In this document: piece after piece, positions 13,830 to 34,219 of the stretch
Layout of the letters: every line of letters starts with the position of its first letter
How positions within the stretch are numbered: the first letter of the stretch is position 1
Origin: Corallococcus sp. NCRR
GTDB taxonomy: Bacteria > Myxococcota > Myxococcia > Myxococcales > Myxococcaceae
Assembly (NCBI RefSeq): GCF_026965535.1
Contig: NZ_CP114039.1
Location: 8,849,461 to 8,913,460 of the forward strand
Direction: 5' to 3'
DNA length: 64,000 nt
Translations under genes and position numbers: made by a program
Notes under the pieces: generated by a model
Database searches by the model: none
Seen by the model: the letters and a program-made list of their open reading frames with translations, nothing else
Told to the model about the DNA's origin: nothing

Positions 13830-15311
13830 ATGCCCCGAGCCCTCGCGTCCTCCCGGCGCGCCCGTCCCGCCCAGCTCGCCCCCCCGGCCGCGCGGCGGGC
13901 GGCCGCCTCCCCGCTCCTGCCCCCCGGTCTGCTGGAACGTCTGCTGGCGGAAGCCATGGGCAAGGGCGCGGACTTCGCGGAGGTGTACGTGGAGCGCACG
14001 TCCACCACCGCCGTGGTGCTGGAGGAGCAGCGCATCCGCAGCGCGCAGGTGGGCCTGGTCCAGGGCGTGGGCGTGCGCGTGATTGCCGGGGCCAAGGTGG
14101 GCTACGCCTACTCCGACGACTGGGACGAGGCCGCGCTCGTGCGCGCCGCGCGCACCGCCGCGATGATCGCCCAGGGCGGCGGCTCCGAGCGCGCCTACCC
14201 CGTCAAGCGCGTGCCGGTGCCCAGCCATTACCGGATCGGCCAGCCGCTGGAGGACGTGGCGGTGGCGCGCAAGACGGCGCTGCTCACCCGCGCGGACAAG
14301 GCGGCCCGCGCCTTCGACTCGCGCATCCAGCAGGTGAACGCGTCCTACGTGGATCAGACGCGCAGGATCGCCGTGGCCAACACCACCGGCCGCTTCAGCG
14401 AGGACACGCAGGACCAGTCCCGCATGAGCGTGCACGTGGTGGCGCTGGGGAAGAACGGCGAGCGGCGAACCGGCATGTACGGCAGCGGCGGCCGGGTGTC
14501 CTTCAGCTACTGGGACGGCGTGACGCCGGAGTCCGTGGCGGAGGAGGCCGCGCGCCAGGCCATCGCCACGCTGGGCGCCGTGGACTGCGTGGCGGGGCCG
14601 CAGACGGTGGTGCTGGCGCCGGGCTGGAGCGGCATCCTGCTGCACGAGGCGGTGGGCCACGGCCTGGAGGCGGACTTCATCCGCAAGGGCACGTCGCTGT
14701 TCGCGGGTAAGCTGGGGGAGAAGGTGGCCTCCGACCTGGTGACCGTCATCGACGACGGCACGGTGTCCAGCGCGCGCGGCTCCATCAACATCGACGATGA
14801 GGGCGTCCCGGGCGAGCGCAAGGTCCTCATCGAGAACGGCGTCCTCAAGGGCTACCTCTATGATCAGCTCAACGCGAAGCTGATGAACCAGCGCTCCACG
14901 GGCTCGGGGAGGCGCGAGTCGTTCAAGAGCCTGCCCCTGCCGCGCATGACGAACACCTTCCTGGCGCCCGGGGACCACGCGCCGGAGGACATCCTCAAGG
15001 AGGTGAAGCGCGGGCTGTACTGCGCCACCTTCGGCGGGGGCCAGGTGGACATCAGCAACGGCAACTTCGTCTTCGAGGTCAGCGAGGCCTACCAGATTGA
15101 AGACGGCAAGCTGGGGCGCCCGGTGAAGAACGCCATCCTGATTGGCGTGGGGCCGGAGGCGCTGAAGAACATCAGCCGCGTGGGCTGCGACCCGATGCCG
15201 GACCCCGGCATGGGCGTCTGCGTGAAGGACGGGCAGATGATGCCCGTGGGGGTGGGCCTGCCCACCGTGCGCATCGACAACGTCACCGTGGGCGGAACGA
15301 AGGTCGGCTGA
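13830..15311 (+). CDS. tldD: TldD metalloprotease subunit
   Basis: A 493-residue TldD protein. TldD forms the catalytic half of the TldD/TldE zinc protease that degrades unfolded peptides; in other bacteria it matures microcins and helps degrade CcdA. The zinc motif HEAVGHGLE (HExxxH) is present near residue 272, and the glycine-rich C-terminus (MPVGVGLPTVRIDNVTVGG) is typical. The first about 30 residues are an Ala/Arg-rich extension that is longer than in enterobacterial TldD. They contain a paired Arg but no clear hydrophobic core. The tldE partner starts nine bases downstream, so the complex is made from one operon. Confidence 0.93.
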   Translation: MPRALASSRRARPAQLAPPAARRAAASPLLPPGLLERLLAEAMGKGADFAEVYVERTSTTAVVLEEQRIRSAQVGLVQGVGVRVIAGAKVGYAYSDDWDEAALVRAARTAAMIAQGGGSERAYPVKRVPVPSHYRIGQPLEDVAVARKTALLTRADKAARAFDSRIQQVNASYVDQTRRIAVANTTGRFSEDTQDQSRMSVHVVALGKNGERRTGMYGSGGRVSFSYWDGVTPESVAEEAARQAIATLGAVDCVAGPQTVVLAPGWSGILLHEAVGHGLEADFIRKGTSLFAGKLGEKVASDLVTVIDDGTVSSARGSINIDDEGVPGERKVLIENGVLKGYLYDQLNAKLMNQRSTGSGRRESFKSLPLPRMTNTFLAPGDHAPEDILKEVKRGLYCATFGGGQVDISNGNFVFEVSEAYQIEDGKLGRPVKNAILIGVGPEALKNISRVGCDPMPDPGMGVCVKDGQMMPVGVGLPTVRIDNVTVGGTKVG

Positions 15312-15319
15312 GGACACCC

Positions 15320-16666
15320 GTGAACTACGAACAGCTCGCGAAGAAAGTGGTCCAGCGCGCCGTGAAGAAGGGCGCGAAGCAGGCGGAGGCGTACCTGGAG
15401 GTGGGCCGCCAGAGCAGCGTGCGCGTCCGCGAAGGGCAGATTGAGGACCTCACGGAGGCCACCAGCAAGGGCCTGGGCCTCCGGGTCATCGTGAAGGACC
15501 GGCTGGGCTTCGCGTACACGTCCGACTTCACGCCCTCGGGGCTGGAGCGCGTGGCGGACCTGGCCGTGCAATTGGCGGAGGCCGCCGCGCCCAACAAGCT
15601 CAACGGCCTGCCCGCCGCGAAGGACCTGGGCAAGCGCGGCGACACCGGCATCCTCTTCGACCCCAAGGTCGCGAACCTGCCCGGGGACTGGAAGATACAA
15701 GCGGCCCTGGAGGCGGAGCGCGCGGGCCGGGCGCAGGACACGCGCGTCGTCACCTTCGACTCCGTGTCCGCGGGCGACTTCGTGGCGGAGGTGTACCTCG
15801 CGTCCAGCGAGGGCGCGTCCGGCGGCTACTCCGGCACGTACGTGTACCTGGTCGCGGTGCCGGTGGCGTCGCAGGACGGGCAGCTCCAGACGGGCTACTG
15901 GCTGGACTACAAGCGCTTCCTGGACGACCTGGAGTCCCCGGAGTCCATCGGCCGCGAGGCCACGAAGCGCGCCGTGCGCATGCTGGGCGCGAAGCCGGTG
16001 AAGACGCAGCAGGTGCCGGTGGTGTTCGACCCGCTGGTGGCCGCGAGCTTCGTGAACAACCTGTCCCAGGCCGCCAACGGCAACGCCGTGTACCAGCAGT
16101 CCAGCGTGCTCGCGCCCCACCTGGGCAAGCGGCTCGCGGGCAAGCACGTCACGCTGGTGGATGACGGCCTGCTCCCCCGGGGCCTGGCCACCGCGCCCTT
16201 CGACGGCGAGGGCGTCCCCACCCGCCGCACGCCCATCCTGGATGAAGGCGTGCTGTCCGGCTTCCTCTACGACGCCTTCACCGCGCGCAAGGCGAAGGCG
16301 CGCACCACGGGCAACGCGTCGCGCGGCTACAGCGCGCTGCCGGGCATCGGCACCACCAACCTCTACCTGGAGAAGGGCACGAAGACGCCGGAGGAGCTGA
16401 TCCGCGAGGTGCCCCAGGGCCTCTACGTCACCGCCCTCCTGGGCCACGGCGCGGATCCGGTGTCCGGGGACATGTCCTGCGGGGCCAACGGCCTTTGGAT
16501 TGAAAACGGTGAGCTGACCCACCCGGTGCAGGAGGTGACGGTCGCGGGCCACCTGCTCCAGATGTTGAAGGACGTGGACGCGGTGGGCAGCGACCTCCAG
16601 TTCCGGGGCGGCAGCGTGGGCGCGCCCACTGTCCGCTTCCGACAGCTCACCGTGTCCGGCGCGTAG
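15320..16666 (+). CDS. tldE: TldE/PmbA protease subunit
   Basis: A 448-residue partner of TldD with the same fold but without the HExxxH zinc site, as expected for TldE/PmbA. It has the N-terminal helix MNYEQLAKKVVQRAVKKGAK, the VRVREGQIEDL strand and the ending SVGAPTVRFRQLTVSGA. The start is GTG at 15320, eight bases after the tldD stop. Co-translation with tldD is likely. The pair forms a ring-like heterodimer in E. coli; the substrate in this organism is not evident from the neighbours. Confidence 0.92.
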   Translation: MNYEQLAKKVVQRAVKKGAKQAEAYLEVGRQSSVRVREGQIEDLTEATSKGLGLRVIVKDRLGFAYTSDFTPSGLERVADLAVQLAEAAAPNKLNGLPAAKDLGKRGDTGILFDPKVANLPGDWKIQAALEAERAGRAQDTRVVTFDSVSAGDFVAEVYLASSEGASGGYSGTYVYLVAVPVASQDGQLQTGYWLDYKRFLDDLESPESIGREATKRAVRMLGAKPVKTQQVPVVFDPLVAASFVNNLSQAANGNAVYQQSSVLAPHLGKRLAGKHVTLVDDGLLPRGLATAPFDGEGVPTRRTPILDEGVLSGFLYDAFTARKAKARTTGNASRGYSALPGIGTTNLYLEKGTKTPEELIREVPQGLYVTALLGHGADPVSGDMSCGANGLWIENGELTHPVQEVTVAGHLLQMLKDVDAVGSDLQFRGGSVGAPTVRFRQLTVSGA

Positions 16667-16729
16667 CCAGCGCCACGCGGTCGCCTACGCTCGCGGACCT
16701 CATTTCCACCGGCACGAGGTGAAGTCCGC

Positions 16730-17740
16730 ATGGCCGCGAAGTCCGCCCGCAAGTCCGCCCCCGCTAAGTCGAAGTCGGCCACGCCGCGCAAGCCGCGGCG
16801 CAAGAAGGCCGAACCGAAGTCGCGGGGCCTGAGCGCGGCCGAAGTCGCGAGCGAAGCCGTGGCCTTCCCCGACGCCCTCCTCCAGGCCGTGCGCGAGGAC
16901 GGCGGCGAGGTGCTGTCCGTCTACCGCGATCCGCTGGGCGGACACCCCGTCGTCTTCGCCGTGCTGCCCATCGACAAGGTGGAGCCCACGCCCTACCAGC
17001 GCGACCTGTCCGAGCCCCACGTCAAGCGGCTCGCCACCGCCATGGAGCGCCTGGACCGCTTCCTCGACCCCGTCATCGCGGTGCGCGTGGAGGGCCGCTA
17101 CTGGACGCCCAACGGCAACCACCGCCTCAACGCCAGCAAGCTGCTGGGCGCGAAGTCCATCGTCGCGCTGCTCTTGCCGGACGAGGACGTGGCCTATCAA
17201 ATCCTCGCCCTCAACACGGAGAAGGCCCACAACCTGAAGGAGCGCTCGCTGGAGGTCATCCGCATGGCGCGGGGCCTCGTTGGAGCGAACCGCCCGGGCA
17301 AGGAGTCCGCCTTCGCGCACCTCTTCGAGGAGCCCTCCTTCCTCACGATGGGCGCCGCCTACGAGAAGCGCCCCCGCTTCTCCGCGGGCGCCTACCACCC
17401 CTTCGTCAAGGTGGTGGACGGCTTCCAGGACGTGCCGCTGGAGAAGGCCCTGGCCATTCGCGACGCCCAGGCGGACCAGCTGCTGGAGCTGGACGACGCG
17501 GTGGTCGCCATCGTCAGCGCCCTCAAGGAGCGCGGCCTCCAGAGCCCCTACCTCAAGAACTTCGTCGTCGCCCGGCTCAACTTCCTGCGCTTCCGCAAGG
17601 ACGGCCCGCCTCCCACCTTCGACTCCACCGTCAGCCGCATGCTGGCCAGCGCCCGGCGCTTCAACGTGGACAAGGTGAAGCGCGAGGACATTGGCCGCAT
17701 GGGCGGCGGCCCCATGGAGCCGGACGAGGAGCAGGCCTGA
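16730..17740 (+). CDS. Stand-alone ParB/Srx-fold protein with basic tail
   Basis: A 336-residue protein. Residues 1-32 are a Lys/Arg/Ala/Ser-rich tail (for example TPRKPRRKK) reminiscent of histone-H1-like tails. A ParB N-terminal-type domain follows (about 70-170): a DKVEPTPYQR strand, a helix with KRLATAMERL, DPVIAVRV and a GNHRL motif in the position of the ParB nucleotide-binding box. There is no ParB-type helix-turn-helix or dimer domain, and parA is not adjacent, so this is not the chromosome-partition ParB. The C-terminal half is helical and unrecognised. It may be a CTP- or ATP-binding domain protein; that is inference. It lies between tldE and the NtrC-type regulator, 62 bases from each. 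Confidence 0.75.
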   Translation: MAAKSARKSAPAKSKSATPRKPRRKKAEPKSRGLSAAEVASEAVAFPDALLQAVREDGGEVLSVYRDPLGGHPVVFAVLPIDKVEPTPYQRDLSEPHVKRLATAMERLDRFLDPVIAVRVEGRYWTPNGNHRLNASKLLGAKSIVALLLPDEDVAYQILALNTEKAHNLKERSLEVIRMARGLVGANRPGKESAFAHLFEEPSFLTMGAAYEKRPRFSAGAYHPFVKVVDGFQDVPLEKALAIRDAQADQLLELDDAVVAIVSALKERGLQSPYLKNFVVARLNFLRFRKDGPPPTFDSTVSRMLASARRFNVDKVKREDIGRMGGGPMEPDEEQA

Positions 17741-17802: not shown

Positions 17803-19209
<1,407 letters not shown>

Positions 19210-19240
19210 CAGGCCGTCACACCGGCCCCCGCCTGCTTTT

Positions 19241-19264
19241 GACAATTTGTCCCGACGACATGTC
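19241..19264. promoter_or_regulatory. Paired GACA/TGTC dyads, candidate enhancer of the gsp promoter
   Basis: GACAATTTGTC (19241-19251) and GACATGTC (19257-19264) are both perfect dyads with the same GACA/TGTC half-sites, and TGTCCCG follows in the same position in each. They lie roughly 120-140 bases upstream of the start site predicted from the sigma-54 promoter at 19355, the usual distance for activator sites. The NtrC-type gene ends 31 bases before. Confidence 0.45.
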
Positions 19265-19285: not shown

Positions 19286-19300
19286 GCCCCGTCCTATTCC

Positions 19301-19311
19301 GAAATAATTTC
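19301..19311. promoter_or_regulatory. AT-rich dyad GAAATAATTTC
   Basis: A perfect 5-base dyad in an AT-rich island, which stands out in this GC-rich sequence. It lies between the candidate enhancer dyads and the sigma-54 promoter, where a DNA-bending protein or a further activator site could sit. Confidence 0.3.
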
Positions 19312-19354
19312 AAGGACTTGGCCGTAAGTCGTGGGTTTGACGCCCGCCCAACGA

Positions 19355-19370
19355 TGGCACCTGCCTTGCT
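19355..19370 (+). promoter_or_regulatory. Sigma-54 (-24/-12) promoter of the gsp operon
   Basis: The sequence TGGCACCTGCCTTGCT matches the sigma-54 consensus TGGCACG-N4-TTGCW at every fixed position except the seventh. The GG and GC elements have the required 10-base spacing. Transcription would start near 19381, about 29 bases before the gspC ATG. Such promoters are silent without an enhancer-bound AAA+ activator, and one is encoded immediately upstream. Confidence 0.75.
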
Positions 19371-19409: not shown

Positions 19410-20321
19410 ATGGAACTCTTCTTTCGCAAGTACTTCTGGAGCGTGAACCTGTTGTTCATCCTGCTCGTCGCCCTTCTGGCGGCGCGCACGGTGAACCTGT
19501 TCATCGAATCCTCCATCTCCCCCGCGCCCGCGTCCGAGGCGCCCGCCCGCGTCGCGCAGCGCACTCACGCCGCGGACAGCGGCCTGGCCACCATCGACGC
19601 GGAGCGCCTGTCGCGCCTCACCGGCGTGAAGCTGCCGGAGCCGGAGGTCGCGGTGAAGGAGCCCACGGCGCCGGAGTTCGACGCCAACGCCCCGCCGGCC
19701 AAGAGCGGCCTGCGCGTGAAGCTCCTGGGCACGCTCGTCGCGGCCAACCCGGACTGGTCCTTCGCGTCCATCCAGGACATGAACACGCAGCGTTCGCAGA
19801 CCTACATGATCGGCAACAACCTGATGGGCGCCACCGTCATGGAGATCGAACGCGAGCGCGTGATCATCAACAACAACGGCCGCCGCGAGTTCATCGACGG
19901 GCAGCCCGGTGACGGCGCCGTCGCCGCCTACACCCCGCCCCCCGCCACGCCCGCCGCCACGCCGACGAACAGCCTGGGCAACGGCATCAAGTCCACGGGT
20001 GAGAACGAGTACGAAGTCCCCAAGGCCGAGATCGACAAGACGTTGAGCAACCTCAACGACGTGGCGATGCAGGCGCGCATCGTGCCGGCCTTCAAGGACG
20101 GCCAGGCGGTGGGCTTCAAGCTGTTCTCCATCCGCCCGGACAGCATCTATTCGAAGATCGGCGTCCAGAACGGTGACGTCATCCGCCGCATCAACGGCTT
20201 CGACATGAACAGCCCCGAGAAGGCGCTGGAGATCTACTCGAAGCTGAAGGACTCCTCCCGCATCGAGATCGAGATCGAGCGCAACGGCGCGCCGATCCGC
20301 AAATCCTACAACGTCCGTTAA
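19410..20321 (+). CDS. gspC: Type II secretion inner-membrane protein GspC
   Basis: A 303-residue protein linking the inner-membrane platform to the secretin. One N-terminal membrane helix (about residues 10-30), a Pro/Ala-rich linker, an HR domain (about 95-160; GLRVKLLGTLVA) and a C-terminal PDZ domain (about 210-300; NGDVIRRINGFDM). A GTG three bases earlier (19407) is an alternative start. It is the first gene of the operon, with a short leader from the sigma-54 promoter. GspC contacts the N0 domain of GspD, encoded 28 bases downstream. Confidence 0.9.
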   Translation: MELFFRKYFWSVNLLFILLVALLAARTVNLFIESSISPAPASEAPARVAQRTHAADSGLATIDAERLSRLTGVKLPEPEVAVKEPTAPEFDANAPPAKSGLRVKLLGTLVAANPDWSFASIQDMNTQRSQTYMIGNNLMGATVMEIERERVIINNNGRREFIDGQPGDGAVAAYTPPPATPAATPTNSLGNGIKSTGENEYEVPKAEIDKTLSNLNDVAMQARIVPAFKDGQAVGFKLFSIRPDSIYSKIGVQNGDVIRRINGFDMNSPEKALEIYSKLKDSSRIEIEIERNGAPIRKSYNVR

Positions 20322-20349: not shown

Positions 20350-22950
20350 ATGAAGACGACGCTCCCGTCCTGGATGCTCTGCCTGTGCCTCGCGCTCTCC
20401 GTTCCCGCGTGGGCCCAGCGCCGTCCTACACAGCCCGCCAACCCGGCCCCTGCTCGCGAGGCTCCGGGTGACCGTGACCGGACCATCACCCCGCAGAACG
20501 GCAGCGCCGCGCCCGCCGAGAACCAGGGGCCCCGCCAGACGCCCACGTGCGAGCAGGCCCGTCGCAACGCGCGCTACGGCATCTACTTCGACAAGGTGGA
20601 CATCGAGAAGCTCGTCCAGACCGTGTCGGACGCCACCTGCCGCACCTTCATCCTCCCGGAGAACGTGCGCGGGAAGATCTCCATCATCGGTCCGGAGAAC
20701 GGCCGCGTGGAGGTGGACGCGGACTCGTTCTACTCCGCGTTCCTCGCCGCGCTCGACGCGAACGGCCTGGCCGTCTACCCGTACGGCCGCTTCCTGAAGA
20801 TCGTCGACAAGCGCTCGGCGAAGCAGAACCCCATCCCGACCATCGTGGACGAGGACACCCCGTACACGACGAACGAGCAGATGGTCACCAAGCTGTTCAA
20901 GATCAAGTACGTGGAGGTGGAGCCGCTGCGCGGCGTCCTCCAGCAGCTCGTGTCCAAGGACGGCGACACCATCCCGTACCCGCCGGACACCATCATCGTC
21001 AACGACGTGGGCTCCAACATCCACCGCCTGGAGCGCCTCATCAAGCAGTTGGACAGCCGCTCCTCCAGCGACGAGATGCGCATCATCCAGGTGCAGTACG
21101 CCACCGCGCAGGACGTGGCCAGCACCATCCAGAAGCTCTTTGAAGCCAAGGCCGGCGCGGGCGGCCGCACGGGCCAGCGCCCCGGCAACTTCACGCAGGG
21201 CCAGCCCGGCCAGCCCCCTCCGGGCTCGGAGGGCGTCTCCGGCACGGAGTCCGGCGGCGCCGTGACGCTGTCGCAGATCATCCCGGACGAGCGCACCAAC
21301 AAGCTCATCGTCGTGGCCAGCCCCGCCGCCTTCGGCCGCATCGAGGACCTGGTGCGGGAGATCGACATCCCGTCCGGCAGCGGCAACAAGATCAACGTCT
21401 ACCCGCTGGAGAACGCCAACTCCGAGGAGCTGGCCAGCACGCTCCAGTCGCTCGCGCAGGGCACCGCCAACCGCCCCCAGCGCGGCCCCATCCCCGCCCA
21501 GCCGCAGGGCCTGCCGCGCGCGCCCGCCCAGGCCGCGGAGCTGTTCAGCGGCGAGGTGAAGATTTCGGCGGACAAGGGCACCAACTCGCTGGTCATCGTC
21601 GCCAGCCAGGCGGACTACAAGAACATCGTCCAGATCATCCAGCAGCTGGATCAGCCGCGCCGCCAGGTGTTCGTGGAGGCGGTGATCATGGAAGTGAACC
21701 TGGACCGCAACAGCGAGTTCGGCATCAACTTCCACCAGGGCTTCAGCCTCAAGACGGATGACGGCGCCATCCCCGGCATCCTCGGCACCAACTACTCCGG
21801 CGGCTCCATCCCGCCGTCCTTCTCGCTGGCGAACCTGGCCAGCATGGGCGGCTTCCTCGCCGGCATCCAGGGCCCCGTCCTGCCGGAGCTCAAGAACCTG
21901 GGCATCGACATCCCGGCCTTCGGCGTGGTGCTCAACGCCATGCAGCAGTCGTCCGACGTGAACGTGCTCTCCACGCCGCACCTGCTCACCAGCGACAACG
22001 AGGAGGCCGAGATCACGGTGGGCCAGAACGTGCCCTTCCAGTCTGGCTTCACCCCGTCCGCGCTGGGCGCGTCGCTCGGCGGCACCGGCACCAACGGCGG
22101 CGTCAACCCGTCGCTGCTGGGCTCGCTGGGCGGCCTGGGTTCGCTGTACGCGCCCATCACCCGCCAGAACGTGGAGCTCAAGCTCACCGTCAAGCCGCAG
22201 ATCAACGAGAGCGACTACATCCGCCTGGTCATCACCGAGCAGACGGAGGAGATCGCCTCCACGGATCCCGTCCTGGGCCCCACCACGTCGAAGCGCAGCG
22301 CGAAGACGACGGTCATCGCCAAGGACATGGAGACCGTGGTGATTGGCGGCATCATGCAGGACCGCACGCTGGAGTCCGTCTCCAAGGTGCCGGTGCTGGG
22401 TGACATCCCCCTCCTGGGCCACCTGTTCCGCGACACCACGCGCCGCAAGACGAAGACGAACCTGCTGCTCTTCCTGACGCCCTACATCATCCGCGGCCAG
22501 GAGGACTTCCGCCGCATCTTCGAGCGCAAGATGAAGGAGCGGCAGCAGTTCGTGGAGCAGTTCTACGGCCAGGTCCCCGGCTACGACGTCGCGGTGGACT
22601 TCAGCCGCAAGCCCGGCCCCCTGTCGCGCATGAACCAGTCCGTCATCAAGGAAGAGCAGCGGGTGGAGAACGGCGGCAGCGGCACGCCCAACGAGCGGGT
22701 CATCCGCCCGAACGGCGCCCAGGCCCCCGCCAGCGCCCCCTCCCCGTCCCCCGCGCGGCCGGGCGGGGAAGCGCCTGCCGGGCAGGAAGGTGCCGCGCCC
22801 TCCCCCGAGGGCGACCAGGCGCCGCGAAATTTCGAGGCGCCTCCGGAGGGTTCGGAGAGATCAGTCCCCGCGCCACAGCCCGAGGTGATCGCGCCCAGCC
22901 CGGACGCGGACGCCGAGCGGCTGCGCATCCAGCCGGGAGACGGGGAGTAA
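20350..22950 (+). CDS. gspD: Type II secretion outer-membrane secretin GspD
   Basis: An 866-residue secretin with a signal peptide (about 1-22, ending AWAQ). A disordered spacer is followed by the periplasmic N0 domain (about 70-150, with two Cys near its ends), N1-N3 (about 165-430; N2-N3 joined by a Gly/Gln/Pro loop), and the secretin core (about 440-740; QVFVEAVIMEV and the signature VPVLGDIPLLGHLFR). The last about 100 residues are Pro/Ala/Glu-rich and probably disordered. It forms the multimeric outer-membrane channel. No pilotin gene is seen next to it. The stop lies five bases before gspE. Confidence 0.95.
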   Translation: MKTTLPSWMLCLCLALSVPAWAQRRPTQPANPAPAREAPGDRDRTITPQNGSAAPAENQGPRQTPTCEQARRNARYGIYFDKVDIEKLVQTVSDATCRTFILPENVRGKISIIGPENGRVEVDADSFYSAFLAALDANGLAVYPYGRFLKIVDKRSAKQNPIPTIVDEDTPYTTNEQMVTKLFKIKYVEVEPLRGVLQQLVSKDGDTIPYPPDTIIVNDVGSNIHRLERLIKQLDSRSSSDEMRIIQVQYATAQDVASTIQKLFEAKAGAGGRTGQRPGNFTQGQPGQPPPGSEGVSGTESGGAVTLSQIIPDERTNKLIVVASPAAFGRIEDLVREIDIPSGSGNKINVYPLENANSEELASTLQSLAQGTANRPQRGPIPAQPQGLPRAPAQAAELFSGEVKISADKGTNSLVIVASQADYKNIVQIIQQLDQPRRQVFVEAVIMEVNLDRNSEFGINFHQGFSLKTDDGAIPGILGTNYSGGSIPPSFSLANLASMGGFLAGIQGPVLPELKNLGIDIPAFGVVLNAMQQSSDVNVLSTPHLLTSDNEEAEITVGQNVPFQSGFTPSALGASLGGTGTNGGVNPSLLGSLGGLGSLYAPITRQNVELKLTVKPQINESDYIRLVITEQTEEIASTDPVLGPTTSKRSAKTTVIAKDMETVVIGGIMQDRTLESVSKVPVLGDIPLLGHLFRDTTRRKTKTNLLLFLTPYIIRGQEDFRRIFERKMKERQQFVEQFYGQVPGYDVAVDFSRKPGPLSRMNQSVIKEEQRVENGGSGTPNERVIRPNGAQAPASAPSPSPARPGGEAPAGQEGAAPSPEGDQAPRNFEAPPEGSERSVPAPQPEVIAPSPDADAERLRIQPGDGE

Positions 22951-22955
22951 CGACC

Positions 22956-24782
22956 ATGGACCTGACCGCCGACACCACCACCTCTCAAGGCTCCACCGCG
23001 ACGCCCGACGTGTCCGGCGGCCGCAACGACGCCACCCAGGTCGTGGGCCACGGGCTGGCGTACCTCTGTGGCCGGCCGCTCGGGGAGATCCTCCGCGCGC
23101 TCGTGCCCGGCCTCACCCCGGAGAAGATTCAGGAGGCGCTCGCCGCCCAGCAGGAGAAGGGCGGGCGCCTGGGTGAAATCCTGGTGGGCATGAAGGCGGT
23201 CAGCGAGGAGGACGTCGCTCGCGCCCTGGGCCACCAGCTGGACCTGCCCTACCTCCAGCGCATCTTCGTGGAGGAGGTGGACGCGGAGCTGGTCAAGCGC
23301 ATCCCCATCAACTTCGCCCGCCAGACGCAGCTGCTCCCCATCTCCCAGGAGGGCGACGAGGTGGTGCTCGCGGTGGCGGATCCGCTGGACACGACCGCAT
23401 TGGATCACGCGCGCCTGCTCCTGGGTCAGGGCATCCAGCCGCGCATCGCGCTCGCCTCCACCATCGTGGACGCCATCAACAGCGTGTACGACCGCTCCGT
23501 CAACGAGGCCGAGGCGCTCGTGGACGAGATGGAGACCACGGAGGACCTGGACTCGCTGGCCCATGAGCTGGAGGAGCCGAAGGACCTCCTGGACGCGGAC
23601 GACGAAGCGCCCGTCATCCGGCTGGTGAACTCCGTGCTCTTCCGCGCCGCCAAGGAGCGCGCGAGCGATATCCACATCGAGCCCATGGAGCGCGAGCTCC
23701 TGGTGCGCTTCCGCATCGACGGTGTGCTCCAGGAGGTCATCAAGCCTCCCAAGCGCTACCAGAACTCCATCATCGCGCGCGTGAAGGTGATGGGGCAGCT
23801 CAACATCGCGGAGAAGCGCCTGCCGCAGGACGGCCGCATCCGCATCAAGCTCGCGGGCCGCGACATCGACATCCGTCTGTCCACCACGCCCACGTCCTTC
23901 GGCGAGCGCATCGTCATGCGTCTGTTGGACAAGACGGCGACGCTCCTGGACCTGGCGGAGATCGGCATGAGCCCGCAGGTGCTGGGCAACATGGAGTCCG
24001 TCATCAAGCGCTCGCACGGCATCGTCCTGGTGACGGGCCCCACGGGCTCCGGCAAGACGACCACGCTCTACGGCGCGCTCTCCAAGATCAACACGCCCGA
24101 CCTCAACATCCTCACCGTCGAGGACCCGGTCGAGTACCAGCTCAAGGGCATTGGCCAGATGGCCATCGCCCCGAAGATCGGCCTCACGTTCGCGCAGGGC
24201 CTGCGCTCCTTCCTCCGCCAGGACCCCGACGTCATCATGGTCGGTGAGATCCGCGACAAGGAGACGGCGGAGATCGCCATCCAGGCGTCCCTCACGGGCC
24301 ACCTGGTGCTCTCCACGGTGCACACCAACGACGCGGCCGGCGCCGTGACGCGACTCGTGGACATGGGCGTGCAGCCCTTCCTCGTGGCGTCGTCGCTGAC
24401 GGGCATCCTCGCCCAGCGCCTCGTGCGCCGGGTGTGCCCGGACTGCCGGCAGCAGTACACGCCCACGGACGCGGAGCTGAAGGAGCTGGGCTTCACGCTC
24501 GCCAGCTTCAAGGCGAAGTACAACACCGACCGCATCTACCGCGCGGTGGGCTGCCCGTCCTGCAACCGCAACGGCTACCGCGGCCGCTCCGGCATCTACG
24601 AGTTCCTCTTCGTGGACGACGACGTGCGCCAGCTGGTGCTCAAGAACGTGGACGCGTCCACCATCAAGAAGTCCGCCCTGGCCAAGGGCATGACGACGCT
24701 CCTGGACGACGGCGTGCGGAAGATCGCCCTGGGTGAGACGACCATCGCCGAAGTGCTGAGCATCACGCAGGAGGACATCTAG
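22956..24782 (+). CDS. gspE: Type II secretion ATPase GspE
   Basis: A 608-residue cytoplasmic motor ATPase. It has the N-terminal GspE/MshEN domain (about 25-190), a linker, and the RecA-like core with Walker A GPTGSGKT (361-368), an Asp box (LTVEDPVEYQL), Walker B and a His box. A zinc-binding pair CPDC...CPSC with about 30 residues between follows near residues 494-530. The N-terminal part should dock to GspL. Length is slightly above E. coli GspE because of the longer N-terminal region. It is followed seven bases later by gspF. Confidence 0.95.
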   Translation: MDLTADTTTSQGSTATPDVSGGRNDATQVVGHGLAYLCGRPLGEILRALVPGLTPEKIQEALAAQQEKGGRLGEILVGMKAVSEEDVARALGHQLDLPYLQRIFVEEVDAELVKRIPINFARQTQLLPISQEGDEVVLAVADPLDTTALDHARLLLGQGIQPRIALASTIVDAINSVYDRSVNEAEALVDEMETTEDLDSLAHELEEPKDLLDADDEAPVIRLVNSVLFRAAKERASDIHIEPMERELLVRFRIDGVLQEVIKPPKRYQNSIIARVKVMGQLNIAEKRLPQDGRIRIKLAGRDIDIRLSTTPTSFGERIVMRLLDKTATLLDLAEIGMSPQVLGNMESVIKRSHGIVLVTGPTGSGKTTTLYGALSKINTPDLNILTVEDPVEYQLKGIGQMAIAPKIGLTFAQGLRSFLRQDPDVIMVGEIRDKETAEIAIQASLTGHLVLSTVHTNDAAGAVTRLVDMGVQPFLVASSLTGILAQRLVRRVCPDCRQQYTPTDAELKELGFTLASFKAKYNTDRIYRAVGCPSCNRNGYRGRSGIYEFLFVDDDVRQLVLKNVDASTIKKSALAKGMTTLLDDGVRKIALGETTIAEVLSITQEDI

Positions 24783-24789
24783 GTCCGCC

Positions 24790-26046
24790 ATGCCCGTCTT
24801 CGAATACAGAGGCCTTGATTCCCAGGGCAGGCAGAAGAAGGGCCTGCTGGAGGCGGACTCGCCCAAGACGCTGCGCTCCAAGCTGCGCGCGGACGGCATC
24901 TTCCTCACGGACGTGCTGGGCCAGGCGGAGGGCAGCCGCGCGGGCGTCTCCAAGGGCGCCAACGCGAACCTGCTCGCGCGCGACGTGGACCTGCGCAAGC
25001 TGGGCCGCGGCCGCGTGTCCACGGAGGACGTCGCCATCCTCACCCGGCAGCTGGCCACGCTCCTGGGCGCGGGCGTCACCATCGTGGATTCGCTCAACGC
25101 ACTGGTGGACCAGGCGGAGAAGGAGCGCCTCAAGCGCGCCCTGTCCGACATCAAGCAGCGCGTGAACGAGGGCTCGTCCCTGGCGGACGCGTTCAGCCAG
25201 CACCCGAAGATCTTCCCCAGCATCTACATCAACATGGTGCGCGCGGGTGAGGCCTCCGGCGCGCTGGATCAGGTGCTCCTGCGGCTGGCGGACTTCACGG
25301 AGAACCAGGCCAAGCTGCAGCAGAAGATCATCGGCACGATGATCTACCCCATCATCATGCTGGCGGTGGGCGGCGGCATCCTGGTGCTGCTGATGGTGTT
25401 CGTCGTCCCGAAGGTCACGAAGATCTTCGAGACGATGAAGGCCACCCTGCCGCTCAACACGCGCATCCTCATCGCCGCGTCCAACCTGATGCAGGGGTGG
25501 TGGTTCATCATCATCCCGGCCTTCATCGCCGGCGTGGTGCTCTTCATGCGCTGGACCAAGAGCCCCAAGGGCAAGCCCAAGTGGGACCGCTTCACGCTGA
25601 AGGCCCCCATCTTCGGCAGCCTCGTGCGCCTGCTGGCCATCTCGCGCTTCGCGCGCACGCTGGCCACGCTGCTCAAGAGCGGCGTGCCCATGCTGGCCGC
25701 GCTGGACATCGTCAAGGCGGTGATGACGAACTCGGTGCTCGCGGACGCGGTGGAGAACGCCCGCGAATCCATCCGCGAGGGCGAAAGCATCGCCAACCCG
25801 CTCAAGCGCTCCGGCCAGTTCCCGCCGCTCGTGTACCACATGGTCGCCATCGGTGAGAAATCAGGGCAGCTGGAGGACATGCTCCTGTCGGTGGCGGACT
25901 CCTATGAGACGCAGGTGAACGTGCGCATCGGCGCGCTCACCAGCCTCCTGGAGCCCATGCTCATCGTGGTGATGGGCGTGATGATTGCATTCGTCGCCCT
26001 CAGCATCCTGATGCCGATTCTGCAGGTGAACACGGCCATCCATTAG
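24790..26046 (+). CDS. gspF: Type II secretion inner-membrane platform protein GspF
   Basis: A 418-residue polytopic protein with two copies of the GspF cytoplasmic helical domain (about 70-195 and 270-395). Membrane segments lie near 180-210, 225-250 and at the C-terminus (MLIVVMGVMIAFVALSILM). It opens with the usual MPVFEYRGLDSQGRQKKG. GspF transmits the ATPase movement to the pseudopilus. Length and layout are standard. A small membrane ORF follows 15 bases later. Confidence 0.95.
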   Translation: MPVFEYRGLDSQGRQKKGLLEADSPKTLRSKLRADGIFLTDVLGQAEGSRAGVSKGANANLLARDVDLRKLGRGRVSTEDVAILTRQLATLLGAGVTIVDSLNALVDQAEKERLKRALSDIKQRVNEGSSLADAFSQHPKIFPSIYINMVRAGEASGALDQVLLRLADFTENQAKLQQKIIGTMIYPIIMLAVGGGILVLLMVFVVPKVTKIFETMKATLPLNTRILIAASNLMQGWWFIIIPAFIAGVVLFMRWTKSPKGKPKWDRFTLKAPIFGSLVRLLAISRFARTLATLLKSGVPMLAALDIVKAVMTNSVLADAVENARESIREGESIANPLKRSGQFPPLVYHMVAIGEKSGQLEDMLLSVADSYETQVNVRIGALTSLLEPMLIVVMGVMIAFVALSILMPILQVNTAIH

Positions 26047-26205: not shown

Positions 26206-26275
26206 CCCTTCTGACATCCCGACACACCCATGGCGCGGTGGCTTGCCAGAAAGTCACCCGAAGGTGAGTGAAGAC

Positions 26276-26695
26276 ATGCACACGACGAACGCGAAGAAGC
26301 AGCAGCGCCGCAAGAACCGCGGCATGACCCTCATCGAGATCATGGTGGTCATCACCATCCTCGGGCTCATCGCGGCGGCGGTGGGCGTGGCCGTCATTCC
26401 CAAGCTGGAAGAGGCCAAGCAGGACACGGCGCGCCTGGACATCCGCAACATCCAGAGCGCCATGAAGCTCTACTACACGAAGAAGGGCTCCTACCCGGAC
26501 ACCGCCACGGGCCTCAAGGCGCTGGTGGACACCAACAACCTGGAGCGCATGCCCATGGACCCCTGGGGCCGTGAGTACGTGTACATGAACGAGGGCGGCA
26601 AGCCGGTCATCACCAGCTACGGCGCCGACGGCAACCCGGGCGGCGAGGGCTCCGACGCCGACATCTCCTCCAAGGACCAGAACGCCAAGCCGTAA
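26276..26695 (+). CDS. gspG: Major pseudopilin GspG
   Basis: A 139-residue major pseudopilin starting MHTTNAKK at 26276. The prepilin-peptidase site is RG followed by MTLIEIMVV (Met at +1, Glu at +5). A hydrophobic stalk helix and the globular domain follow, including the PMDPWGREY turn and the calcium-loop region GADGNPGGEGSDADI. Length is typical. It polymerises into the pseudopilus after processing by a prepilin peptidase, which is not in the window and is probably PilD elsewhere. A divergent GspG-like gene follows. Confidence 0.95.
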   Translation: MHTTNAKKQQRRKNRGMTLIEIMVVITILGLIAAAVGVAVIPKLEEAKQDTARLDIRNIQSAMKLYYTKKGSYPDTATGLKALVDTNNLERMPMDPWGREYVYMNEGGKPVITSYGADGNPGGEGSDADISSKDQNAKP

Positions 26696-26753
26696 CGGGC
26701 GTTTTCCTGAAGCAAAGCCGCGCCTCCCGCGTGTTGTCGTAGGAATGCCCGTG

Positions 26754-27221
26754 ATGACTCCCGAGCACACTTCCTCACCGACGTCCGCGCGCGAGGCGCG
26801 CGCCGTTCCCAGCGGGCAGGCCCGCGCCCGTTCCCCGCGCACGGGCCGCCTGCTGCTGCTGGGCGTCTTCGTGGTCGCCACCCTGCTTGCGTTCACGCTG
26901 GTGTGGGTGACCGAGGACAACACCCTCACCCCGACACAGCGCCAGGCGCGCGAGCAGATCCGCCGGCTGGAGGGCTTCTTCAAGGCCTACCACCGGCTGA
27001 TGGGCTCCTTCCCCACGCAGGCGGAGGGCTTCGCGCCGCTCATCGCCTCCAAGGTGCTGGACAGCACGCCTATCGACCCGTGGGGCCACCCGTACATCTA
27101 CCGCATGGAGGGCAAGACGGGCGCCGTGCTGTCGCTGGGCTCCGACGGCAAGCCCGGCGGCACCGGCGACGCCGCGGACATCTTCTCAGGCGGCATCGTG
27201 GCACAGGAGGTGCAGCCTTGA
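26754..27221 (+). CDS. GspG-like protein without a prepilin processing site
   Basis: A 155-residue protein (start at ATG 26754, nine bases after AGGA; an ATG at 26745 abuts that site and is less likely). The C-terminal half matches the GspG globular domain: a long helix (QAREQIRRLEGFFKAY), SFPTQAEGF, PIDPWGHPYIY and the calcium-loop region GSDGKPGGTGDAADI. The N-terminus is instead a basic leader of about 30 residues and an ordinary membrane helix (LLLLGVFVVATLLAFTLVWV), with no G-(F/M/L)-TLIE site and no Glu at +5. It cannot be processed or assembled like a pseudopilin and is probably a membrane-anchored paralogue. Its stop overlaps the TTG start of gspH. Confidence 0.75.
   Translation: MTPEHTSSPTSAREARAVPSGQARARSPRTGRLLLLGVFVVATLLAFTLVWVTEDNTLTPTQRQAREQIRRLEGFFKAYHRLMGSFPTQAEGFAPLIASKVLDSTPIDPWGHPYIYRMEGKTGAVLSLGSDGKPGGTGDAADIFSGGIVAQEVQP
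27205..27220 (+). promoter_or_regulatory. AGGAGG and TTG that set the gspH start
   Basis: A perfect AGGAGG (27205-27210) lies seven bases before TTG (27218-27220). The next in-frame ATG at 27230 is 19 bases away. The TTG overlaps the stop of the preceding gene (TTGA), the same coupling as the ATGA overlaps further on. Confidence 0.6.
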
Positions 27222-27952: not shown

Positions 27953-28881
27953 CGACCCCAACGCGCAGGCGCTCGGGCTTCACCCTGCTGGAGACGATGG
28001 TGGCCATGGCCATCCTCAGCGTCGCGCTGATGGCCATCTTCGACCTCAACTCCGGGGCGGTGGCGAACCACGTCTACACCAAGCGGCTCACCGTGGCGTC
28101 GCTCCTGTCCCGCTCGAAGATGACGGACCTGGAGCAGAAGCTCTACGACGACGGCTTCGAGCAGGACGACGATGAGCAGTCCGGCGACTTCTCCGACGAG
28201 GGCTGGCCCCAGTTCAAGTGGCGCGCCCGCATCATCGCGCCCAAGACGGACGGCGTGACGCCGGACCAGCTCATCGGCGCCATCTTCAACCTGCCCATGG
28301 GCGGCGGTGACTCCGGCGACCCGCTGGGCGGCCTGGCCGGCCTCTTTGGCGGCGGTGGCGGCGACAGCAAGGGCGGCACGCCCCCGGGCGGCACCACCAC
28401 GGCCAGCCCCCTGGGCGCGTCCGCCATGAGCATGGCGCAGCCCATGTTCACGCAGATGGTGGACCAGCTCACCAAGTCCGTCCGCGAGGTGCACCTCACC
28501 GTGTACTGGAAGGAAGGCACCCAGGTGGAGAGCGTGGACGTGGTGACGCACGTCGTGTCCCTGGGGCCTGGCGGCGACCGCAACGGCGGCTTCACGCCCA
28601 ACGCGGGCAGCACGCCGGGCGCGGAGAACCAGTGGGTGAACCCGCGCACGGGCCAAGTGGTGGACAACCCCATCCCCGGCCCCAACGGGCAGATGCTGGA
28701 CCCGAACACGCGCGAGCCGCTGGTGAACCGGAAGGCCCAGCTTGATCAGCTCAACAGGAACATGGGCGGCGGCAACGGCAACCCCGGCACCAACCCGCGC
28801 GCGCCGGGCGGTGGCATCTTCGGCGGCCGCGGTGGCCTGCCCAACCTGCCGAGCCTGCCTCGCGGAGGGAGCATCCGATGA
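27949..28881 (+). CDS. gspI: Minor pseudopilin GspI with large insert and tail
   Basis: A 310-residue protein with the prepilin site SG followed by FTLLETMVAM. GspI is normally about 125 residues. Here the core (1-112 and about 175-204, ending VYWKEGTQVESVDVVTHVV) is split by a Gly/Ser-rich loop (118-152), and a further about 105 residues form a Gly/Asn/Pro-rich tail. GspI forms the pseudopilus tip with GspJ and GspK. The additions would project from the tip. They may be disordered and, by inference, could touch cargo or the secretin. Overlaps gspH and gspJ by four bases each. Confidence 0.88.
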   Translation: MTTPTRRRSGFTLLETMVAMAILSVALMAIFDLNSGAVANHVYTKRLTVASLLSRSKMTDLEQKLYDDGFEQDDDEQSGDFSDEGWPQFKWRARIIAPKTDGVTPDQLIGAIFNLPMGGGDSGDPLGGLAGLFGGGGGDSKGGTPPGGTTTASPLGASAMSMAQPMFTQMVDQLTKSVREVHLTVYWKEGTQVESVDVVTHVVSLGPGGDRNGGFTPNAGSTPGAENQWVNPRTGQVVDNPIPGPNGQMLDPNTREPLVNRKAQLDQLNRNMGGGNGNPGTNPRAPGGGIFGGRGGLPNLPSLPRGGSIR

Positions 28882-29552
28882 AGCGGCGCATGCGTGGCTT
28901 CACCCTCATGGAGGTCATGGTCGCGGTGGGCATCACCGCCCTCATGGGCACCGTCGTGGCCCTGGCCTTCCAGACGGGCATCAACGCCAAGGAGGTCGTG
29001 GAGGGCGAGGCGGAGCGCTACCGCATGGTGCGCGTGTCGCTCAACCGCATGGCGCGCGAGGTCGGCTCCGCGTTCGTGAGCGACCGCTATGATTTGCGCC
29101 GCTTCCGCGACCAGAACGACCGGCCCACCAACTTCATTGGCGAGCGCGACAAGCTGACCTTCACGACGTTCGCGCACCAGCGCCTGTACACGGACGTGAA
29201 GGAGTCCGACCAGGCGGTGGTGGAGTACTTCGTGGAGAACTCCTCCGAGCGCGGCGCCCGGCAGCGCCAGGACCTGAAGCGGCGGGTGAACCCCAACGTG
29301 GGGGACCGCATGGACCGGGGCGGCACCACGGACGTCCTCTTCGAGGGCGTCAAGAGCGTGGAGTTCGCCTACTGGGATTCGGACAAGAAGGAGTGGGACG
29401 ACGAATGGGACACGCGGCGCACGGAGAAGAAGGACATCCTCCCCTCGCGCGTGCGCATCACCGTCATCGCCCTGGATGAGTCGGGCAAGGAGGCGCGCTA
29501 CACCACGCAGGCGCGCATCCTGCTCAACACCACCCTGCCGAGGTTCAACTGA
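28878..29552 (+). CDS. gspJ: Minor pseudopilin GspJ
   Basis: A 224-residue minor pseudopilin with the prepilin site RG followed by FTLMEVMVAV. The globular domain has the YRMVRVSLNRMAREVGSAF helix and the FEGVKSVEFAYWD strand typical of GspJ, and a basic C-terminus. Length is within the family range. A ggaggg ribosome site precedes the ATG, which overlaps the gspI stop. The gspK ATG overlaps the gspJ stop by one base (TGATG). Confidence 0.92.
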   Translation: MKRRMRGFTLMEVMVAVGITALMGTVVALAFQTGINAKEVVEGEAERYRMVRVSLNRMAREVGSAFVSDRYDLRRFRDQNDRPTNFIGERDKLTFTTFAHQRLYTDVKESDQAVVEYFVENSSERGARQRQDLKRRVNPNVGDRMDRGGTTDVLFEGVKSVEFAYWDSDKKEWDDEWDTRRTEKKDILPSRVRITVIALDESGKEARYTTQARILLNTTLPRFN

Positions 29553-30985
29553 TGGCCTTCCCCTACTTCCAGCAGGCGTCCCGCCGGCGCGGCAAGGCGC
29601 GGACGGCCGTCCCCCAGGCGCTGGCGCCGCGGCGCTCCCCGGCGGAGCGCAAGCACCGGCGCTCGCGCGGCGTGGCGCTCATCATCGCGCTCGTGTCCAT
29701 CACGCTGCTCACGGTGGTGGCCACGGAGTTCGCCTACAACAGCCGCGTGGACCTGCAGCTCGCCGCCAACCAGCGCGACGAAGTGCGCGCCTACTACATG
29801 GCCCGCTCCGGCATCTCCCTGGGGCGGCTGCTCCTGCGCTTCCAGAAGCAGGTGGACCAGACGCCCATCCCCAACCCCGCGAGCCTCCTGAGCGGTCTCA
29901 TGGGCGGGGCACTGGGCGGCGGCGCCCCCGGCGGCACCGGCGCGAACGCGTTCCAGCCGCAGTCGCTCAACCTCCAGCTCTGGAAGCTGGCGCGGGTGGA
30001 CTGCCACATGCTCAAGGGGCTGGTGAAGAGCGACGGCGCGCAAGGCGAGGACGGCCGCCCCGTGGAGACGGAGCCCGTGCAGGTGGACTCCAACTTCCAG
30101 ATGGAGGGCGAGGACGGGGAGGGCGCGGGCGCGCCGATGGCGGCGCAGATGCCGCGGCGCTCCTTCGGCGGCTTCGAGGGCTGCTTCCTCGCGACCATCA
30201 GCGACGAGGAGGAGAAGCTCAACGTCATGCGCCTGAACACCGGCGGCGCGGAGGCGCAGGCCACCGCCCTGCGCATGGCGGACATGTTCGCGGACAAGCG
30301 CTTCGAGTTCCTCTGGCAGCAGGACGACGCCAACCACGTGCGCTCCACGCCGCAGGACGCCGTCATCGCGCTGAAGGACTGGTCGGACGAGGACACCACC
30401 CAGTCCACCTTCAACCGCAACGACCCCACCAACCCCTTCGTCGCGGGCTTCGCGGACGAGGGTTCCCCGTACAGCCGCTACGAACCGCGCTATGACGTCA
30501 AGAACGCGCGCTTCGACAGCCTGGATGAGCTGTACCGCGTGCATGGCGTCAACGACCGCTTCATGGCGGCCTTCCGCGACCGGCTCACGGTGTACCCGGA
30601 CATCAACTCCAAGCCGAACATCAACACCGACGACCCCATCATGCTGGGGCTGGCCATCATGTCCGCCGCGGACCCCAACCGTCCGGACCCGCGCCTGACG
30701 GACCCGGTGTTCCTCAACGAGCTCATCAGCCGCATCCGCGCCGCGCGCATGTTCAACTTCTTCGGCATGTCGGTGGCGGACTTCCTGGGCGTGGTGGAGC
30801 AGGCGGGCATCGCGGTCAACCCCCTCATCAAGGGCAACGTCCAGCAGAACCGCTACCTGGGCGACAAGAGCAAGACGTTCACCATCAAGTCCGTGGGAGA
30901 AGCGGGCAGCGTCCAGAAGACGCTCACCGCCGTCATCCGCCTGGACGACGGGCTGGGCAAGCTCGTGTATTACAGAGAGGAATAG
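29552..30985 (+). CDS. gspK: Pseudopilus tip protein GspK
   Basis: A 477-residue protein. Its prepilin-like start is preceded by an unusually long basic leader of about 45 residues, and the processed end is RG followed by VALIIALVS. It lacks the +5 Glu, as GspK normally does, which places it at the tip. The NSRVDLQLAANQRDEVRAYYMARSG-type helix and the central domain with paired SAM-like helices follow. An acidic, Gly/Ala-rich insert lies near 115-200. It is somewhat longer than enteric GspK (about 330). It should cap the pseudopilus with GspI/J. Confidence 0.92.
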   Translation: MAFPYFQQASRRRGKARTAVPQALAPRRSPAERKHRRSRGVALIIALVSITLLTVVATEFAYNSRVDLQLAANQRDEVRAYYMARSGISLGRLLLRFQKQVDQTPIPNPASLLSGLMGGALGGGAPGGTGANAFQPQSLNLQLWKLARVDCHMLKGLVKSDGAQGEDGRPVETEPVQVDSNFQMEGEDGEGAGAPMAAQMPRRSFGGFEGCFLATISDEEEKLNVMRLNTGGAEAQATALRMADMFADKRFEFLWQQDDANHVRSTPQDAVIALKDWSDEDTTQSTFNRNDPTNPFVAGFADEGSPYSRYEPRYDVKNARFDSLDELYRVHGVNDRFMAAFRDRLTVYPDINSKPNINTDDPIMLGLAIMSAADPNRPDPRLTDPVFLNELISRIRAARMFNFFGMSVADFLGVVEQAGIAVNPLIKGNVQQNRYLGDKSKTFTIKSVGEAGSVQKTLTAVIRLDDGLGKLVYYREE

Positions 30986-30986
30986 C

Positions 30987-32594
30987 ATGGCCCGCATTCT
31001 TGGCCTGGACCTGGGCAGCCACTCCGTGAAGGGGGTGGTCCTCACCTCCGGGACGAAAAGCAACACCACCCAGGCCTACGCGGAGGTGCGCCGCGCGCAG
31101 GAAGGCGACCGCGCGGACACGCTGCGCGCCGCCGTGGAGGAGCTGCTCGGGAAGATGCCGCAGGGGCACGTGGACCAGGTCGTCATCGCCCTGCCCGGCC
31201 CGTCCCTCACCACGCACGCGGTGAGCCTGCCCTTCTCCGACAGCAAGCGCGTGGAGGCGACGCTGCCCTTCGAGGTCGGCAGCCAGCTGCCGTTCGACAT
31301 CTCGGAGGTCGTCTACGACTACCAGGTGGTCGGCCAGAAGGACACCGGCGGCAAGGAGAAGGCCGCGGACCTGCTGGTGGGCGTGGTGAAGAAGGAGGAG
31401 CTCCAGTCGCTGCTGGCGCTCCTGGGCGGACTCCAGGTGGATCCGCGCGTCATCACACACCCGGCGCTCGCGTACCAGAACCTCCTCACCCAGCTGCCCG
31501 GGCTCTTCGAGGGCATGAGCGAAGGCGGCCCGGTGGCGGTGGTGGACATCGGCCACGAGCGCACGGCGGTGGCCATTGGCCAGCCGGGCAAGGGCGTGGA
31601 GTTCGCGCGCGCCTTCGCGGGCGGCGGGCGCGACCTGACGCGCGCCCTGGCCACGGAGTTCCAGACGACGGTGCCGGAGGCCCACGCGTGGAAGGAAGCG
31701 CACGGCGCCATGGCCAGCGCCGCGCAGGGGCCGGACGCCGAGCGCGCCGCGAACGCCTTCGTGCGCGGCCTGCAGCCGGTGCTGCGCGAGCTGCGCCCGT
31801 CCTTCAAGTCCTTCGCCGCGCGCACCCGCCAGCAGGTCTCCGCGGTGGTGCTGTGTGGCGGCACCGCGCGGATGCCGGGCCTGGCCGAGCAGCTGTCCAA
31901 GGACCTGAACCTGCCGGTGCGCGTGCTGGCGCTGCCGGTGGACGCGACGGAGAAGATTGGCCCCCGGGAGGCGCCGTCCGCGGCGCAGGCGTACGCGCTG
32001 GCCATGCGCGGCAACGCGGCCGGGGTGAAGGCGCCGCGCTTCAACCTGCGCCGGGGTGAGTTCGCCTTCAAGGGCGGCTACGACTACGTGAAGGACCGGC
32101 TGGGCCTCCTGGCCTCCTTCGCGGTGACGCTGCTCCTGCTGCTCATCGCCTTCGGCGTCGTGCGCAACACCGTCCTGTCGCGACGCGAGGCGGAGGTGGA
32201 CGCGGTGCTCTGCAAGACGACCCAGCGCATCCTGGGCACCTGCGAGACGAACTACGACCGCGCGCTGAACATGCTCAAGGGCGTGGAGAGCCCCGCCGCC
32301 GCGCTGCCCGCGATGTCCGCGGTGAACCTGCTGGCGGAGGTCACGCAGCGCATCCCGCCGGAGGTGCCGGTGAAGTTCGACCGCATCCAGGTGGACCTGG
32401 ACCGCATCATGCTCCAGGGAGAGACGGACAGCTCCAAGCAGATCGACACGCTCTCCGCCGCCTTGAAGGGCCACCGCTGCTTCAAGGACGTGAAGGAGGG
32501 CAAGGTGGAGAAGACACGCGACGGGCAGAAGGTGACCTTCCGCCTGGACGTGCAGGTGCAGTGCCCCGGCGAGCCGCCGGCGGGAGAGACGTGA
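30987..32594 (+). CDS. gspL: Type II secretion platform protein GspL
   Basis: A 535-residue bitopic protein. The cytoplasmic actin-like (PilM/GspL) domain spans about 1-350, opening ILGLDLGSHSVKGVVL and containing VVDIGHERTAVAIG and LCGGTARMPGL. One membrane helix follows near 370-392 (GLLASFAVTLLLLLIAFGVV), then a periplasmic ferredoxin-like part with two or three Cys. It recruits GspE to the membrane and pairs with GspM, encoded one base after its stop. The near-complete PilM-like nucleotide motif is better kept than in enteric GspL. Confidence 0.92.
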   Translation: MARILGLDLGSHSVKGVVLTSGTKSNTTQAYAEVRRAQEGDRADTLRAAVEELLGKMPQGHVDQVVIALPGPSLTTHAVSLPFSDSKRVEATLPFEVGSQLPFDISEVVYDYQVVGQKDTGGKEKAADLLVGVVKKEELQSLLALLGGLQVDPRVITHPALAYQNLLTQLPGLFEGMSEGGPVAVVDIGHERTAVAIGQPGKGVEFARAFAGGGRDLTRALATEFQTTVPEAHAWKEAHGAMASAAQGPDAERAANAFVRGLQPVLRELRPSFKSFAARTRQQVSAVVLCGGTARMPGLAEQLSKDLNLPVRVLALPVDATEKIGPREAPSAAQAYALAMRGNAAGVKAPRFNLRRGEFAFKGGYDYVKDRLGLLASFAVTLLLLLIAFGVVRNTVLSRREAEVDAVLCKTTQRILGTCETNYDRALNMLKGVESPAAALPAMSAVNLLAEVTQRIPPEVPVKFDRIQVDLDRIMLQGETDSSKQIDTLSAALKGHRCFKDVKEGKVEKTRDGQKVTFRLDVQVQCPGEPPAGET

Positions 32595-34137: not shown

Positions 34138-34219
34138 GCCCCCGGTTGATGCCCGCGCACGCGCCGTGTAAAGCGCTGCGCGCGGCCCCGGGGTGTCCGG
34201 GCTTGGGAGAGAGTTCGTA

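Follow-up and report, generated by a model that had tools for sequence, protein, structure and literature searches.

A probable sigma-54 promoter and enhancer-like palindrome upstream of the type II secretion operon of a Corallococcus genome

The type II secretion (gsp) operon of this Corallococcus genome is very probably driven by a genuine sigma-54 promoter at positions 19355-19370 of the window (the whole stretch of 64,000 nucleotides that was analysed). The most likely activator is the product of the neighbouring gene, here called EBP1, which would act through an upstream palindrome and whose core regulon would comprise two operons, one for the secretion machine and one for its likely cargo.

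Results

The -24/-12 element TGGCACCTGCCTTGCT is located on the + strand at 19355-19370, beginning 55 nt and ending 39 nt upstream of the gspC start codon (ATG at 19410), and predicts a transcription start at about 19381. A first, sequence-only reading of this DNA had claimed a match to the sigma-54 consensus at all but one position with correct spacing, and this holds: compared with TGGCACR-N4-TTGCW the sole mismatch is the R position (C at 19361), and the GG and GC dinucleotides are 10 bp apart as in sigma-54 promoters. The genome encodes one copy of rpoN, which is also present in 78 of the 79 relatives. Exact-pattern searches of the 9.79 Mb genome returned four occurrences of TGGCACNNNNNTTGCW versus five of the reversed control pattern; the string by itself may thus be due to chance, and the case for a promoter is made by its position and conservation. 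Two further exact TGGCACNNNNNTTGCW sites (G000:C1:577620 and 7429440; L092, L094) are followed directly 3' by genes for products with signal-peptide-like N-termini and no clear family.

GspC was detected in 78 of 79 relatives, the closest named ones being Corallococcus species; 80 named loci were taken and the promoter statistics refer to 79 GspC loci. Within the last 120 nt upstream of gspC the strict pattern TGGCA[CT]-N5-TTGC[AT] was present in 70 of these 79 loci, from genera across Myxococcota, versus none in 100 rounds of dinucleotide shuffles. The element is positioned about 28-58 nt upstream of gspC in nearly all loci (TGGCACCTGGCTTGCT in Myxococcus xanthus, TGGCACGTCGGTTGCT in an Anaeromyxobacter example). 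Its 46 distinct versions drift freely at the spacer positions and are nearly invariant at positions 1, 5, 6 and 16 (T, A, C/T and T), which were not fixed by the search pattern. Whether the element is kept across Myxococcales, a comparison proposed by the sequence-only reading, could be answered positively for Corallococcus, Myxococcus (including M. xanthus), Archangium, Hyalangium and Anaeromyxobacter, and conservation reaches beyond the order, to over half of the loci inspected from other orders and classes of Myxococcota. An apparent loss in one family (L204, L213, L214, L228), whose leaders are longer than elsewhere, was rejected, since these loci have, about 99-107 bp past the retained palindrome described below, a weaker element of the form GG-N10-GC.

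If the element were a chance or minor match, gsp would be transcribed mainly from a sigma-70 promoter or by read-through from EBP1. The genome-wide count given above fits such a view, and read-through is possible since a search for a terminator in the EBP1-gspC interval found none. A sigma-70-like site was sought in the same intergenic region and likewise not found, and an Rfam search found no RNA element. Given the deep conservation of the element, its pairing with an enhancer-like site and its retention where the EBP1 gene is kilobases distant or absent nearby, we regard this explanation as scarcely credible and favour a sigma-54 promoter.

Downstream of the element the genes follow in the order gspC-D-E-F-G...J-K-L-M-N on the + strand. 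The product of gspC (19410-20321) reaches 313 bits in NCBIfam NF041515 (GspC_delta; cut-off 150) and matches Pfam T2SSC. Pfam further identified the secretin gspD (20350-22950), the ATPase gspE (22956-24782), gspF (24790-26046), a second GspG-like pseudopilin (26745-27221), gspJ (28878-29552), a gspK-like gene (29552-30985) and a gspL-like gene with PilM, T2SSL and PilN domains (30987-32594), while the major pseudopilin gspG (26243-26695, start approximate) and gspN (33157-34137; TIGR04411) were assigned by NCBIfam.

Side-by-side comparison of the gspC upstream regions led to the recognition of a palindrome, TGACA-N3-TGTC, which was found in 74 of the 79 loci versus 0.34 in shuffles and takes the form TGCCA-N3-TGGC in Anaeromyxobacter. 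The copy in the window, TGACAATTTGTC (19240-19251), is a candidate EBP1 enhancer (UAS) and lies 115 bp before the -24 element, within the approximately 80-200 bp expected of an enhancer; elsewhere the distance is mostly 63-161 bp, with clusters at 63-65, 95-97, 105-107, 115-117 and 145 bp. At a period of 10.5 bp we obtained R = 0.43 for the gspC distances alone and a joint R of 0.49 (p ~2e-4) for the unique gspC and cargo distances, which stem from related and not independent loci; this moderate signal suggests that the distances may reflect helical phasing. A weaker palindrome, TGACA-GGC-CGTCA (19207-19219), precedes the main one by 33 bp, overlaps the stop codon of EBP1 and is a candidate second enhancer site; it was seen by inspection in Myxococcaceae-type loci. 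Anaeromyxobacter and several outgroups feature two palindromes 40 bp apart at gspC. Between enhancer and promoter of the window an A+T-rich block (TATTCCGAAATAATTTCAAGGACTTGGCCGT; 19295-19325) with a ATTCCGGAATAATT-like core is conserved by eye in Myxococcaceae-type loci and absent from distant ones; it is possibly a bend, an IHF-like site or the site of a second regulator.

Composites of palindrome and GGC..TTGC were found 85 times at gspC and once elsewhere in 1.83 Mb of strand-sequence, and the lone exception precedes a tandem gspC copy. TGACAWWWTGTC occurs a single time in the own genome, before gspC, and most Myxococcaceae-type genomes likewise have either the gspC copy alone or very few copies. 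The relaxed pattern TGMCAWWWTGKC was present in exactly two places of the own genome, before gspC and before a gene of the MXAN_2561 family, and the reversed control in none. The proposal that the promoter is dedicated to secretion gains support from this near-unique enhancer site. Palindromes are numerous in genomes richer in A+T (G035 and G049, for example), and isolated TGACAWWWTGTC palindromes with no recognisable sigma-54 element nearby occur in some relatives (L299-L303, L305-L309), so that the motif alone is insufficient to define targets there.

A 12-bp two-fold palindrome does not by itself identify its binder, and what was seen is its conservation. It might be occupied by a dimeric regulator distinct from EBP1, such as a repressor, with only the -24/-12 element under sigma-54 control. 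We consider this very improbable, as the palindrome is found at quantised distances from the -24 element and within enhancer range, occurs in tandems spaced by 32 or 40 bp, and in both target operons belongs to a promoter of the sigma-54 type. An enhancer that is bound by an activator of sigma-54 polymerase remains the preferred interpretation.

The NtrC-type activator gene that had been noticed immediately upstream of gspC is indeed present. EBP1 (17803-19209, + strand) combines, according to Pfam, a receiver domain, a sigma-54 AAA+ domain (Sigma54_activat) with Walker A/B motifs and a GAFTGA-type motif (GAYTGA), and a Fis-type helix-turn-helix, the features of an NtrC-type enhancer-binding protein. 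Judged by gene order, it is presumably the counterpart of M. xanthus MXAN_2516. Comparison with NCBIfam equivalogs did not support an assignment as PrsR (TIGR02915, 413.7 bits, cut-off 502.6), AtoC (473/714), NtrC (439/559) or ZraR (438/760 bits). Orthologues were found in 77 of 79 genomes of the order with 62-100% identity, the next paralogues reaching at most about 52%, and their recognition helix is nearly constant. The phosphorylation site is intact: D54, T82 and K104 of the receiver are present, together with GA[FY]TGA, in 39 of 39 orthologues.

The EBP1 gene ends 116-284 nt upstream of gspC in 41 of 78 named loci, and the palindrome is also retained in lineages in which it is kilobases away or outside the gspC flank examined. 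Elsewhere in the phylum EBP1 is present in 18 of 21 genomes, unlinked to gspC, and palindrome plus element were detected at more than half of the 27 outgroup gspC loci examined. Both are missing from the near-complete genomes that have no EBP1 (G107, G118). Outgroup loci with EBP1 and with the elements missing at gspC were also encountered (G116, G089 and one G082 locus).

The sequence-only reading had further predicted that secretion depends on a kinase signal. This is plausible because the receiver Asp, Thr and Lys residues are invariant; a kinase, however, was identified neither among the genes beside EBP1 (13830-17740 of the window) nor beside the unlinked orthologues. In six outgroup loci (L276, L279, L280, L282, L285, L290) the unlinked orthologue is directly preceded by an ORF of 178-180 amino acids, and the three products that were tested (L276, L282, L285) contain two ACT domains each. 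Such a protein could possibly provide a small-molecule input.

The second target is 48 kb away from gsp and encodes a MYXO-CTERM surface protein of the MXAN_2561 family and an MXAN_2562 outer-membrane barrel. The own-genome MXAN_2561-family gene (L348:11145-12197) scored 323 bits in NCBIfam NF045522 (cut-off 150). Its promoter element, TGGCCCCGCCCTTGCT, follows the palindrome by 97 bp and precedes the ATG by 16 nt. The same layout of palindrome and element precedes the MXAN_2561-family gene in 23 of 24 relatives, compared with 0.005 in resampled sequence, and the upstream region of the one miss is cut by a contig end. The Anaeromyxobacter promoter of this operon also features a 40-bp palindrome tandem. 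In some relatives there are extra palindromes, and those with a sigma-54 element 3' of them lie upstream of genes for exported proteins, namely the MXAN_2561 family and the MXAN_2562 barrel (NCBIfam).

Discussion

The claim that a type II secretion operon is under sigma-54 control is supported at the level of sequence by the conservation of the element and by the conserved enhancer-like palindrome. We assume the following mechanism. EBP1 would be phosphorylated by a kinase encoded elsewhere, and EBP1-phosphate would bind one or more TGACA-N3-TGTC palindromes about 115-150 bp upstream. By looping of the DNA it would then contact the sigma-54 polymerase at 19355-19370 and melt the promoter at the expense of ATP, initiating transcription of gsp. 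In the own genome the core regulon of EBP1 would consist of the gsp operon and the MXAN_2561/2562-type operon, and since both would be EBP1 targets, the machine and its likely cargo would be switched on together.

Surface receptors of the MYXO-CTERM type, among them TraA, are cargo of type II secretion in myxobacteria, and other exported proteins probably are as well. MYXO-CTERM proteins need type II secretion for export in Myxococcus xanthus (PMC11980579), and on the basis of this literature the MXAN_2561-family protein is presumably a substrate of the gsp machine. The best reading of the comparative data would be a private and ancient sigma-54 regulon that pairs a secretion machine with a cargo protein. 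We also lean towards a wider formulation, in which an orphan regulator co-switches type II secretion and a MYXO-CTERM protein with its outer-membrane partner as a largely private regulon throughout Myxococcota. If this is correct, the MXAN_2561/2562 pair may be an ancestral cargo of the secretion system or a working accessory to it.

Another sigma-54 input to the same operon has been described. For M. xanthus, PMC9765219 reports an internal Nla28/sigma-54 site with weak consensus that precedes gspG within the gsp operon (MXAN2511). The counterpart of this site is found at 25974-25989, at the end of gspF, as GGGCGTGATGATTGCA (M. xanthus version, GGGCGCGGTGATTGCA). It differs from the gspC promoter in its internal position, weak consensus, activator and half sites, and the main promoter before gspC is absent from the Nla28 targets in the main text of that report. 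This published Nla28 input to an internal gsp site counts against the mechanism assumed above.

The main activator of the gspC promoter could be another protein, with the position of EBP1 being incidental. One candidate is Nla28, for which binding to a fragment from within the M. xanthus gsp operon is reported (PMC9765219); the other is an FHA-domain enhancer-binding protein whose gene (34193-35851 of the window) lies immediately 3' of gspN, a position that it keeps throughout the Myxococcaceae/Archangiaceae-type family. The assignment of EBP1 is itself drawn from sequence comparison. However, in most of the order's other families the FHA-type gene is not linked to gsp, with its best match distant or on another contig, and palindrome and element persist there; the Nla28 half site CT(C/G)CG(C/G)AG (PMC7910581) is unlike TGACA-N3-TGTC. 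EBP1, in contrast, is the neighbour retained throughout the order, and its recognition helix is nearly constant. An activator other than EBP1 therefore appears unlikely, and EBP1 is retained as the probable activator.

Sigma-54 and NtrC-family regulators also control type IV pilin genes (the PilR-pilA type), and sigma-54 there drives an evolutionarily related pilus-type machine from a different operon. The closest analogue of the gspC promoter system is the PEP-CTERM cis-regulatory site of PrsR/PrsK, which was likewise defined by comparative genomics (Haft 2006, PMC1569441). In that system, too, an NtrC-type response regulator has its own motif upstream of -24/-12 elements before genes for proteins with a sorting tag. 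The targets of PrsR, however, are PEP-CTERM proteins and its kinase PrsK is encoded adjacently, whereas EBP1 would serve the type II secretion machine and a MYXO-CTERM protein, and no adjacent kinase was found.

No main regulator of myxobacterial type II secretion was found in the literature searched, and publications on MXAN_2515, MXAN_2516, MXAN_2561 and MXAN_2562 did not yield the main gsp promoter, which older sigma-54 surveys may list. If the proposed regulation is true, it would be a clear example of a whole type II secretion operon governed by an enhancer-dependent promoter, and it would tie two unstudied genes, those of the MXAN_2561/2562 family, to secretion. The near-unique site of a private activator would offer a direct genetic handle, one gene and one 12-bp site.

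A second type II secretion cluster (own genome, G000:C1:5833346-5836800, L079; loci L072-L090) features a conserved sigma-54-like TGGCCC-N5-TTGCT element. At 82-103 bp upstream of this element, several relatives have a GC-centred TGACA-N3-TGTC palindrome, which is degenerate in the own genome.
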